A stretch of DNA of 64,000 nt, from NCBI GenBank assembly GCA_025358125.1, contig JANYKS010000097.1:124001-188000 (forward strand), in the 5' to 3' direction. This document shows positions 48-29,426 of the stretch, piece by piece; within the stretch, counting starts at the first letter, position 1, and every line of letters starts with the position of its first letter. The notes below the pieces were generated by a model. It ran no database searches, was not told the DNA's origin, and worked only from the letters and a program-made list of their open reading frames with translations. Source of the DNA: Actinomycetes bacterium (GTDB lineage: Bacteria; Actinomycetota; Acidimicrobiia; Acidimicrobiales; Ilumatobacteraceae). The position numbers and the translations under genes are program-made.

Positions 48-68
48 TTTCTGACGTTGTGTCAGAAA
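48..68. promoter_or_regulatory. Palindromic operator, copy 1
   Basis: Perfect inverted repeat TTTCTGAC-GTTGT-GTCAGAAA. It lies 66 bases before the GTG at 135 and is the left-most of nine copies of the same motif in the window. The architecture (8-base arms, 5-base spacer) suits a dimeric TetR-type repressor; that family assignment is inference, and no such regulator is encoded here. Confidence 0.75.
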
Positions 69-134
69 CTTTGTCCTGCACGGTCTTGACGGCGTTTGCC
101 ACAGCTTTTCAGAACGAACAGACGAGGGGTCATC

Positions 135-1394
135 GTGTCCGGGCATCTCCAGGACGAAGTCGTTGTCATCACGGGATCGGGGCGCGGCGGCGGCCGCCAA
201 CCAAGCCCGCAACGCCTGATGCCCGACCTGTCAGCGCTGTCCGACGTGGCGTTCCGCGAGCACGTCAGGGCCTGGCTCGCGGATCATGTCGTCGGCGACT
301 TTGCCGAGCTGAAGGGTCGCGGCGGACCAGGGGACGAAGAAGTCGGCTTCGAGGTCCGGGTCGCGTGGGAGAAAGAGCTCGGCGCCGCCGGCTGGATCGG
401 TCTCGGCTGGCCGGAATCGCACGGTGGCCGGGGCGCCAGCGTTGCCAAACAGATCATCTGGGCCGAGGAGTACACCAGGGCTCAGGCCCCGGCCCGGGTC
501 AATCACATGGGTGAGAACCTGCTTGCGCCGACCCTGATCGAGTACGGTACGACGAAGCAGTGCGAACGGTTCCTGGCGGGAATCCTCCAGGGCACCGAGC
601 GGTGGTGCCAGGGTTACAGCGAGCCCGACGCCGGCAGCGATCTCGCCAACGTACAGACCAAGGCCGCGCTCGTCGCGAACGACTCCGGCGGTGAGGACTG
701 GGTGCTCAACGGCCAGAAGGTGTGGACCTCGCTCGCCCACGTCAGTCACTGGTGCTTCGTCGTCGCGAGGACGGAGCCGGGCTCGGCGCGGCATCGGGGT
801 CTGTCGTTCCTGCTGGTACCGATGGCTCAGGCGGGCGTCGGAACCCGCATCATCCGCCAGATCACCGGCGGTGGAGAGTTCAACGAGACGTTCTTCACCG
901 ACGCGCGCACGGGCGGCGACATGGTCATCGGCGCGCCAGGCGACGGCTGGCGGGTGGCGATGGGCCTGCTCGCGTTCGAACGGGGGATCTCCACCCTGGC
1001 CCAGCAGGTCGGCTTCGAACGCGAGCTGCAGTCCACAATCGGGCTCGCCCGTCGGTTCGGCGTGATCGGCGACGCGGTCGTCCGCCAGCGTCTGGCGAAG
1101 GCCCACACCGGATTGCAACTGATGCGTTGGAACGCGTTGCGGTCGATGGGTTCCGGCGTGCCGGGTCCGGAGGCGAGCATCGCCAAGCTGTTCTGGGGCA
1201 ACTGGCACCGCGATCTCGGCGAACTGATGGTGAATCTGATGGGACCGAGCGGGCAGGCGGGCAGCGGCGAGATGACGCTCGAGCACAAGCTGTTCCTCTT
1301 CACGCGCAGCGACACCATCTACGGTGGCAGCAACGAAATCCAGCGCAACGTGATCGGCGAGCGCGTGCTCGGCCTGCCAAAGGAACCGCAATGA
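135..1394 (+). CDS. ipdE1: Acyl-CoA dehydrogenase, FadE30/IpdE1-like, with fused SDR stub
   Basis: Flavin acyl-CoA dehydrogenase, large-subunit type. The body starts naturally at ATG 219 (391 residues) and shows YSEPDAGSDLAN near residue 133 and a C-terminal YGGSNEIQRNVIGER. The next gene is an IpdF-like SDR, the same pair as mycobacterial Rv3560c-Rv3559c; FadE30 was renamed IpdE1 and, with IpdE2, desaturates 5-OH-HIP-CoA in steroid C/D-ring breakdown. The only good Shine-Dalgarno (GAGGGG, 123-128) precedes GTG 135. From there the first codons read like the start of an SDR (VVVITGSGRG) and run in frame into the ACAD, so the protein may carry a 28-residue vestigial leader. No IpdE2-type partner is adjacent. 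The family call is firm, the orthology probable. Confidence 0.8.
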   Translation: MSGHLQDEVVVITGSGRGGGRQPSPQRLMPDLSALSDVAFREHVRAWLADHVVGDFAELKGRGGPGDEEVGFEVRVAWEKELGAAGWIGLGWPESHGGRGASVAKQIIWAEEYTRAQAPARVNHMGENLLAPTLIEYGTTKQCERFLAGILQGTERWCQGYSEPDAGSDLANVQTKAALVANDSGGEDWVLNGQKVWTSLAHVSHWCFVVARTEPGSARHRGLSFLLVPMAQAGVGTRIIRQITGGGEFNETFFTDARTGGDMVIGAPGDGWRVAMGLLAFERGISTLAQQVGFERELQSTIGLARRFGVIGDAVVRQRLAKAHTGLQLMRWNALRSMGSGVPGPEASIAKLFWGNWHRDLGELMVNLMGPSGQAGSGEMTLEHKLFLFTRSDTIYGGSNEIQRNVIGERVLGLPKEPQ

Positions 1395-2155
1395 GTCCAG
1401 TCGCACCCATGTACGTTCCCGGCCACGGCCTGCTGGCGGGCAAGCGGGTGCTGATCACGGCGGCCGCTGGCACCGGCATCGGCTTCGCGACGGCGAAGCG
1501 CTGCGTCGAGGAGGGCGCAACGGTCGTCATCAGCGACAAGCACGAGCGCCGCTGCGGCGAGTCCGCAGCCGAACTCGGCGTCGTCGGTATTCGCTGCGAC
1601 GTCACCGACGAAGACTCGGTCCAGGCTCTGATCGCGGCGGCATCTGCTCACCTCGGCGGGATCGACGTGCTGATCAACAATGCCGGCCTCGGGGGCACGG
1701 CCGAACTGCACGAGATGACCGACGCTCAGTGGGGGGCCGTCCTCGACGTCACACTCAGCGGCACGTTCCGCTGCATGCGCGCCGGGCTGAACTACATGTA
1801 CGGACGCGGCAGTGGCGTCATCGTCAACAACGCATCCGTGCTCGGCTGGCGGGCCCAGGCCGGTCAGGCCCACTACGCGGCGGCCAAGGCCGGCGTGATG
1901 GCGCTCACCAGATGCGCCGCGATCGAGGCCGGTCGGCGCGGCGTCCGCGTCAACGCCGTCGCGCCGAGTATTGCGATGCACCCGTTCCTCGCCAAGGTCA
2001 CCAGCGATGATCTGCTCGAAGAACTGACCGAACGCGAGGCCTTCGGCCGCTACGCCGAGCCGTGGGAGGTCGCCAACGTGATCGTCTTCCTCGCCAGCGA
2101 CTACAGCAGTTACATGACCGGCGAGGTCGTTTCCGTCAGTTCTCAGCGGGCTTGA
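1391..2155 (+). CDS. ipdF: IpdF-like short-chain dehydrogenase
   Basis: SDR of 254 residues that probably oxidises the 5-hydroxyl of the steroid C/D-ring CoA intermediate (IpdF role). It has the cofactor motif TAAAGTGIG (23-31), NNAG near 96-99, and catalytic Ser149, Tyr162 and Lys166 (HYAAAKAG). The unusual TAAAGTGIG start and the strings NNASVLGWRAQ and AAKAGVMALTRC match what I remember of Rv3559c. Its ATG overlaps the stop of the ACAD (ATGA), so the two are translationally coupled. The C-terminal end SDYSSYMTGEVVSVSSQRA lacks the usual DGG, as in IpdF. A generic 3-oxoacyl reductase is the alternative. Confidence 0.8.
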   Translation: MSPVAPMYVPGHGLLAGKRVLITAAAGTGIGFATAKRCVEEGATVVISDKHERRCGESAAELGVVGIRCDVTDEDSVQALIAAASAHLGGIDVLINNAGLGGTAELHEMTDAQWGAVLDVTLSGTFRCMRAGLNYMYGRGSGVIVNNASVLGWRAQAGQAHYAAAKAGVMALTRCAAIEAGRRGVRVNAVAPSIAMHPFLAKVTSDDLLEELTEREAFGRYAEPWEVANVIVFLASDYSSYMTGEVVSVSSQRA

Positions 2156-22104: not shown

Positions 22105-23172
22105 TCATCCAGGAGCCACCGGTGTATCGGCGATGAGCTTGCCGAGTCGAACCAGCGATGGCATCGCGCTGCCGAGAGTGAGATCGATCTGGCGGCCCCA
22201 CAGGAAGCAGCGGTGGAGCGGATAGTCGCGGTCGACGCCGACGCCGCCGTGCAGATGCTGGGCTGCGTAAAGCACCTGGAGACCCCCATCGCTGGCCCAG
22301 AACTTGGCGCTGGCCACCTGCTGGTCCGCCGGCTTGCCCTCGCTGATCCGCCACGCTGCCTGCCAGGCCGTCAGCTTGACGGCCTCGGTGTTGATGTAGC
22401 TGTCAGCGGCCCGCTGGCTCACCGCCTGGAAGCTGGCGATCTGACGGTCGAACTGAATCCGCTGCTTGGTGTACGCAGCGGTGAGTTCGAGGGCGCGTTG
22501 GCACACGCCCGACATGATCAGGCACTGGGCCGTCGTGGCGCCGTTGAGGAGCCTTGCGAGCCCGTCCGTGTCCGCCACCCTCGTAGCCGGGCTGTTCGCG
22601 AACGTGACGCGTGCGTCCGGGATGCCCGATGTGGTGTTCTGACGTTCGACCGTGACGCCAACGGCGGCGGCGTCCACCGCGTAGACGCCGTCCGCAGCGG
22701 ACACCACGAACAGCGCGGCCGCTGTGCCCGCCGGGACGCACACCTTCTCGCCGGTGATCCGCCCGTCGCGAACGGATGTGGTCGGCGTGTAAACGGAACC
22801 GACTGCTTCGTGCAACGCGACGGTCACGATCCGCTCGCCGCTGGCAACACCGCCAAGGAGATCGTCGGCGCCGAACGTGGCCAACGCCGCGCCGGCGATC
22901 AGCACCGCGTACGCAGGCACCGGTGCGGTTGCCCGGCCGACCTCTTCGAGCACGACGGAAAGCTCGATCGCACCAAGTCCCCCGCCGCCGACGCTCTCCG
23001 GCAGAGCGATCCCGACAATGCCGGCATCGGCGAGGATCCGCCACAGTCCCATGTCGAGGCCGTGCTCGCTCGCGGCGGCTGTCTTGTGCGACTCGCTCGT
23101 CACTCGCTCGGTGAGGATCCGGTTGGTGAGCTGGCGCAGTTCATCCTGCTCCGTCGAAAATGTGAAGTCCAT
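22105..23172 (-). CDS. Acyl-CoA dehydrogenase, FadE27/ChsE5-like small subunit
   Basis: Small ACAD of 355 residues, beginning MDFTFSTEQDELRQL. It carries LPESVGGGGLGAIELSVVLEEVG, SFQAVSQRAADSYI and the C-terminal HLHGGVGVDRDYPLHRCFLWG, which fit FadE27 (ChsE5). In mycobacteria ChsE4-ChsE5 dehydrogenates longer (C27/C24) steroid side-chain CoA esters. It starts 12 bases after its large partner at 23185, the expected adjacent pair. The order large then small and the shared operator support one heterotetramer. Confidence 0.82.
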   Translation of the reverse strand: MDFTFSTEQDELRQLTNRILTERVTSESHKTAAASEHGLDMGLWRILADAGIVGIALPESVGGGGLGAIELSVVLEEVGRATAPVPAYAVLIAGAALATFGADDLLGGVASGERIVTVALHEAVGSVYTPTTSVRDGRITGEKVCVPAGTAAALFVVSAADGVYAVDAAAVGVTVERQNTTSGIPDARVTFANSPATRVADTDGLARLLNGATTAQCLIMSGVCQRALELTAAYTKQRIQFDRQIASFQAVSQRAADSYINTEAVKLTAWQAAWRISEGKPADQQVASAKFWASDGGLQVLYAAQHLHGGVGVDRDYPLHRCFLWGRQIDLTLGSAMPSLVRLGKLIADTPVAPG

Positions 23173-28352: not shown

Positions 28353-29426
28353 TCAGCGCGGGCCGAGTACGGCGTCAGCGACTCGGCGTCGGTGGTACGA
28401 CGCACTGCCCCATGCCGGGATCAACGCCCAGGCCTTCTTCATGAACAACTGCAAGTCACATTCCCACGTGTATCCGATCGCGCCGTGCACCTGGAGCGCG
28501 CTGCGCGCCGCCTTTTGGGCGGCATCGGACGCCAACGCCTTGGCCATGCTGACGTCTCGACCAACGGTCTCGACGCCGTTCGCGTGCGACCATGCGGCGC
28601 GGTAGACGGCCGGGCGGGCGAACTCGACCTTCAACAGGGCGTCGGCCATCAGGTGCTTCACGGCCTGGAACGACCCGATCGGCTGACCGAACTGGCGCCG
28701 GTCACGGGCATAGTCACCGGCGATCGCGAGCATCCGCGACGAGAGGCCGAGCAGGTACGCCGATGCGGCGAGCGCGCCGGCATCGACGAGGTGATCGCGA
28801 TCCGCGGCGAGCACGACGCCGCGGGTCCCAGTGCCGGATCCGTCTCCGGCTTCGGATCCGTCTCCGGCTTCGGCTTCGGCTTCGGCTTCGGATCCGTCTC
28901 CGGCTTCGGTGCCGGTGCCGGCACCGGCGAGGGCGGACAACCGGCGGCCACCGTCGATTCCTTCGATCGTCGACTGCGACAATTCGGGATTCTCGATCGC
29001 GCGCACCACATCGCCGTCGGCGATCAGCAAGACCACACACGACGACGCGTGGGGCACGTAGCGCTCGCCCATCAACGCAGCGGTCACCGCGACTGAACCA
29101 TCGGCGATGCCGGCGGCCCACTGGGTGCCGCGCAATGCCAGCGCGCCGACCGTCATGGTCTCCAACACCGGGCCCGGTACTCCAGCCCGACCGAGTTCCT
29201 CGACCAGCAGTACCGAGTCGACGAAGTCGCCACCGAGGCCACCATCGGCGGTCGGCAGCATCATCGAGAGCACGCCCATCTCAGCCAGCCGCTTCCACAA
29301 CGCTGCGTCATTGCCCGTTCCGGACTCCCAGACGACGCGCAGATCGGACGCCGTGAACTCGCGTTCCAACAACGTGCGCAGGCCAGTTGCGAATTCGTGT
29401 TGATCGTTGGTGAAGCTGAACTTCAT
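28353..29426 (-). CDS. Acyl-CoA dehydrogenase, FadE32-like small subunit, with repeat insertion
   Basis: Small ACAD of 357 residues starting MKFSFTNDQHEFATGLRTLL, with FGQPIGSFQAVKHLMADAL and QVHGAIGYTWECDLQLFMKK at the C-terminus. It follows the FadE31-like large subunit by seven bases, matching the mycobacterial fadE31-fadE32 order. Residues about 168-202 are a run of Gly/Ala/Glu/Asp/Ser/Thr (unit EAGDGS) coded by an 18-base plus 6-base minisatellite; it falls between the beta domain and the C-terminal helical domain. The catalytic parts on both sides look intact, so I expect a working subunit. Confidence 0.8.
   Translation of the reverse strand: MKFSFTNDQHEFATGLRTLLEREFTASDLRVVWESGTGNDAALWKRLAEMGVLSMMLPTADGGLGGDFVDSVLLVEELGRAGVPGPVLETMTVGALALRGTQWAAGIADGSVAVTAALMGERYVPHASSCVVLLIADGDVVRAIENPELSQSTIEGIDGGRRLSALAGAGTGTEAGDGSEAEAEAEAGDGSEAGDGSGTGTRGVVLAADRDHLVDAGALAASAYLLGLSSRMLAIAGDYARDRRQFGQPIGSFQAVKHLMADALLKVEFARPAVYRAAWSHANGVETVGRDVSMAKALASDAAQKAARSALQVHGAIGYTWECDLQLFMKKAWALIPAWGSASYHRRRVADAVLGPR
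28836..28907. repeat. In-frame minisatellite inside ACAD gene
   Basis: Three copies of GGATCCGTCTCCGGCTTC (28836, 28854, 28890) with three extra GGCTTC hexamers between copies two and three. All steps are multiples of six, so copy-number change keeps the reading frame. Degenerate GGTGCC units extend it to about 28925. Confidence 0.9.

Follow-up and report, generated by a model that had tools for sequence, protein, structure and literature searches.

The window (the whole 64 kb stretch of DNA that was analysed) begins on the minus strand with the first codons of an acyl-CoA dehydrogenase (ACAD) gene (positions 1-15, start codon at 15-13), which continues outside the window and whose product is close to Tcur3483 and to 4x28 chain A. 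Between this divergent gene and a fused gene on the plus strand lies a perfect palindromic operator with 10-bp arms, AGTTTCTGAC-N5-GTCAGAAACT (46-70; operator sequence TTCTGAC-N5-GTCAGAA). The fused gene is preceded by a plus-strand Shine-Dalgarno sequence, GAGGGG (124-129), located 5 nt ahead of a GTG codon at position 135, from which a frame encoding 419 amino acids runs to position 1394 without any internal stop, reading VSGHLQDEVVVITGSGRGGGRQPSPQRL and then MPDLSALSDVAF before entering an intact ACAD. This FadE30/IpdE1-like ACAD (219-1394, plus strand, counted from its ancestral ATG219) harbors all three domains PF02771, PF02770 and PF00441 above cut-off. Its stop codon overlaps the start of a downstream SDR gene (1391-2155, plus strand) whose product is IpdF-like, scoring 426.6 bits (cut-off, 336) against NF005880/PRK07831, a model which we take to cover IpdF. 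The next gene of the operon encodes a cytochrome P450 (2162-3361, plus strand) that was syntenic in 3 of 80 loci.

In the segment 135-219, both ends of another SDR gene are recognisable and its middle part is absent. The N-terminal remnant consists of the first 18 codons following the GAGGGG motif of the former SDR gene (135-188, plus strand; VSGHLQDEVVVITGSGRG), 15 of which encode residues identical to those at the same positions in the first 18 residues of the SDRs of two congener loci, L004 and L005; the remnant is extendable to position 197 if a change of ATC to GGC is allowed for. The C-terminal remnant (184-219, plus strand) reads AAAAANQARNA-stop in frame 1, the SDR tails of relatives reading KRAAAAKESPN-stop and RKAAAAGEKPNG-stop; it now lies out of the SDR frame, forming part of GGGRQPSPQRL in the frame of the ACAD. 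Its TGA (217-219) overlaps the ATG of the ACAD (219-221) as TGATG, an overlap also found in 5 of 7 congeners (L004, L005, L007, L008 and L028). The two remnants share the 5 nt at 184-188, GCGGC, as junction microhomology. Judged from the match of 15 residues out of 18 together with the same site, flanking ACADs and operator, the resemblance of the stub to an SDR start is beyond chance. As the sequence-only reading of this DNA had proposed, operator, Shine-Dalgarno sequence and GTG135 thus lead into the start of an SDR that is in frame with the dehydrogenase.

The congener set comprised nine genomes of one genus, one of them that of the window, and 7 of the 8 others carry a close ACAD (loci L004-L009 and L028). 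In each of the seven, a complete SDR gene is located directly upstream of the ACAD on the same strand, as a separate gene of full length (302-303 amino acids), the SDRs of the other six being 84-97% identical to that of genome G007. The divergent ACAD was found in the same arrangement, with 87-90% identity, in all seven congeners searched. Across the operator and on into the codons of the SDR, the leader DNA of the window is alignable with the leaders of L004 and L005, and ATG219 is aligned with the ACAD starts of the same two loci. The suspicion that an upstream SDR had been lost was thus borne out by an intact orthologue at the syntenic place in every ACAD-bearing congener, and its loss by deletion by the persistence of both gene ends with the middle missing. 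No orthologue of this SDR was found elsewhere in the window's genome (93% complete), in which the best SDR is 45-47% identical, nor was one found in G045 and G047 (best, 44-47%). Several SDRs of 39-47% identity to the lost one are encoded in the window's genome, some of them beside operator copies (contigs C106 and C96), and these could stand in for it.

In a species-level collection of 80 loci, some of which are cut by contig ends, an SDR was present upstream of the ACAD in 25 and the divergent ACAD in 24, and an IpdF-like SDR was found 3' of the ACAD in 74, Gordonia and Nocardioides included. Among 221 genomes of the family, 34 had a close ACAD, and 32 of these 34 loci (16 of SDR type and 16 'direct', the window being counted as direct) were examined over 250 nt upstream; no remnant comparable to the window's own was found in this interval at the other 31 loci, a negative result which bears on the 15 other direct-type loci because 250 nt fall short of the start of an intact SDR gene. 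In a tree of 77 ACADs, from which L038, L077, L079, L081 and L083 were excluded as cut or incomplete, the ACAD of the window groups with those of 7 SDR-type congeners (100/98). The tree requires at least 4 changes of SDR label on the starred branches, and the SDR was therefore gained or lost more than once. L017 and L098 have their ACAD directly behind the operator without an SDR (at L017, upstream of the ACAD) and are tree neighbours of the SDR-carrying L033 and L036, a pattern that may reflect multiple losses or gains of the SDR. Second copies of the divergent ACAD, with 88-90% identity, were seen in two congeners (G004:C392 and G002:C71). Finally, L029, L039, L053, L058, L054 and L008 come from records titled Bifidobacterium breve, Acidobacteria or Ferrithrix thermotolerans, and their ACADs place among Acidimicrobiia/Microthrixaceae rows; the titles of these records look mislabelled.

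Measured against 10 relatives, the SDR of the window is missing 824 or 827 bp, the remainder being in all ten cases 2 modulo 3. Within the SDR, the deletion was thus not the in-frame one that had been supposed from the sequence alone; a loss of 824-827 bp shifts the SDR frame. The two genes had overlapped in different phases, and a loss of 2 modulo 3 therefore brought GTG135 into the frame of the ACAD. The junction was placed in two ways. In the first, which supposes a parent resembling L006, the common sequence is GCGGC (5 nt); in the second, it is the 7 nt CGGCCGC, which occurs at both places in L004, ATC having later become GGC. With the parental sequence gone, microhomology at the junction can be inferred only from these relatives.

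The operator precedes the SDR-ACAD pair at all 25 SDR-type loci (among L004-L083). When 78 loci were classed by operator context, L081 and L083 being left out, it was located directly before the ACAD at 20 and the context was a different one at 33. The proposal that the deletion gave the dehydrogenase its regulated promoter accordingly had to be abandoned, the ACAD being already the second gene behind the operator at the 25 SDR-type loci. Scanning the 4.06 Mb genome with up to 2 mismatches returned 24 operator sites versus 4 for the reversed control pattern. Eight of the 24 copies, conforming to [AT]TCTGAC-N5-GTCAGA[AT], fall in the window (positions 49, 19991, 24379, 26276, 30599, 32531, 40411 and 47509), which therefore accounts for a large share of one regulon. 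A promoter scan found a single sigma-70-like site, lying across the operator on the minus strand, and none on the plus strand.

Over the 20 nt preceding the start codon, the energy of the anti-Shine-Dalgarno duplex is -7.8 kcal/mol at GTG135 and +0.3 kcal/mol at ATG219, and ranges from -2.2 to -6.2 kcal/mol at the ACAD starts of 7 congeners. The ancestral ACAD was probably fed by ribosomes terminating on the SDR, a source that is now gone. Because ATG219 has neither a Shine-Dalgarno sequence nor a terminating gene upstream, GTG135 is the predicted start, and a disordered N-terminal extension of 28 residues is likely. In the AlphaFold model, residues 1-25 are below pLDDT 50 and most of the core is confident (mean 77.6), such that the extension looks tolerated by the enzyme. 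Judging from these features of the leader, what changed was probably translation rather than operon control. Alternatively, the dehydrogenase may mainly be made from ATG219 or another internal start, leaving the stub as an untranslated leader or as part of a minor isoform. ATG219 is indeed the ancestral start, as its alignment with those of L004 and L005 indicates, and the ACAD core is intact without need of the extension; yet the loss of the terminating gene upstream and the +0.3 kcal/mol at this codon, set against the strong site and open frame retained by GTG135, make this alternative rather improbable. With initiation at GTG135, one may go further and suppose that the joining of the frames was itself selected. 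The loss of the SDR would have removed translational coupling, only a 2-modulo-3 deletion could have rescued expression through the ribosome-binding site and start codon of the SDR, and the extension would be a by-product fixed along with it, maybe with a role of its own. This further step is speculative, and we think it doubtful.

The stub differs from the congeners by 3-4 amino-acid changes, the congeners differing from one another by 0-2. It departs at 2 of 9 columns that are invariant in 26 relatives (K8E and A11V), and none of the 26, in a leave-one-out comparison, departs likewise at such columns. In the window lineage, the three genes next to it show such departures at 2 of 366 invariant columns (Fisher p = 0.003, a test that rests on two substitutions, of which A to V is mild). 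Few as they are, these substitutions speak for a drifting remnant, under relaxed constraint after a real deletion. The deletion is known from one genome and a single assembly which, being in 118 contigs, might have been wrongly joined at this place, the organism itself retaining a complete SDR gene. An error of this kind is disfavoured because a misjoined intact gene should carry no substitutions at columns where 26 of 26 relatives agree; the middle part of the SDR is, moreover, not found elsewhere in the genome, and an overlap of 5-7 nt is shorter than assemblers require for a join, so that we hold an artefact to be very unlikely. The notion that the stub belongs to the dehydrogenase family as a conserved leader or N-terminal segment may be dismissed. 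An open frame does extend from 96 or 135 to the end of the ACAD, but the 250 nt upstream contained no such remnant at any of the other 31 family loci (with the scope given above), and relatives display a whole separate SDR gene, an ACAD that follows the operator immediately, or another arrangement devoid of the stub, so that the syntenic comparison nowhere met it as a conserved part of the enzyme.

Altogether, it appears quite probable that deletion of the SDR handed the GTG135 start over to the dehydrogenase, adding an extension of 28 residues and leaving operon control unchanged in kind. The ancestral order would have been operator, SDR, ACAD and IpdF-like SDR, divergent from the other ACAD, with the SDR stop and the ACAD start overlapping as TGATG. 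A deletion of ~824-827 bp, for which the relatives suggest short GC-rich repeats (GCGGC or CGGCCGC) as the probable end points, would have spared ~18-21 N-terminal and 10-11 C-terminal SDR codons, as the comparison indicates, and, being 2 modulo 3, would have moved the SDR start codon into the ACAD frame by way of the frame offset, as can be seen in the present frames. Ribosomes would most likely start at GTG135 by means of the strong Shine-Dalgarno sequence of the SDR, and would thereby make a dehydrogenase that bears an unstructured extension of 28 residues. Transcriptional control would be of the same kind as before, the ACAD having become the first gene instead of the second. The scar is that of an ordinary gene loss, real and unusually clear: a readable intermediate of gene loss from an operon, in which the two ends of the lost gene are locatable to within a few bases. 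It shows that an SDR kept by congeners at 84-97% identity is dispensable, and that, where genes overlap out of phase, a deletion that shifts the frame can end as a fusion in frame. The segment 135-219 also cautions against annotating the first codons of such a gene as part of the dehydrogenase.

The IpdF-like neighbour, conserved at 74 of 80 loci, makes the assignment of the ACAD as FadE30-like plausible, and by analogy the operon may serve a steroid-type breakdown. Two further stretches of the window, 28353-29426 and 22105-23172, match the IpdE2 model below cut-off (138 and 94.5 bits, respectively, versus 450); each adjoins a pimC_large-like ACAD, and they are candidates for heteromeric ACAD pairs. 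The best PDB match of the lost SDR is 2et6, a (3R)-hydroxyacyl-CoA dehydrogenase.

The SDR-ACAD operon of the congeners shares with the window the operator, leader, SDR start, ACAD and divergent ACAD, as well as the downstream SDR on contigs that extend far enough, and differs in that its SDR is full length and separate, whereas that of the window is a remnant. P22414 is a yeast peroxisomal enzyme of the (3R)-hydroxyacyl-CoA dehydrogenase/17-beta-HSD4 family. For the KstR2 regulon of Mycobacterium tuberculosis, Table 1 of PMC5380842 lists ipdF (Rv3559c) and fadE30 (Rv3560c), matching the window, where the IpdF-like SDR gene comes right after that of the ACAD, and IpdE1 (FadE30) is described as forming, together with IpdE2, the dehydrogenase for 5-OH-HIP-CoA (PMC8708139). 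The operator of the window, TTCTGAC-N5-GTCAGAA, in contrast, differs from the KstR2 motif as given in PMC3068626, AnCAAGnnCTTGnT. Rv3548c, another SDR of the KstR2 regulon, has P22414 as its best characterised hit and is assigned no step where PMC5380842 deals with it; through the descriptions of 2et6 and P22414, both it and the lost SDR resemble the (3R)-hydroxyacyl-CoA dehydrogenase/17-beta-HSD4 family, and Rv3548c may be a counterpart of the lost SDR, the gene of the window being by contrast reduced to a remnant. Among the papers searched, none joined Acidimicrobiia, steroid and KstR2, none joined Ilumatobacter with steroid degradation, and nothing to the point on operon gene fusion was found. 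In operon fusions and deletion scars in general, the beginning of one gene in an operon becomes attached by deletion to the gene after it; the scar of the window differs in that its frames meet only through an out-of-phase overlap combined with a deletion that is not a multiple of 3.
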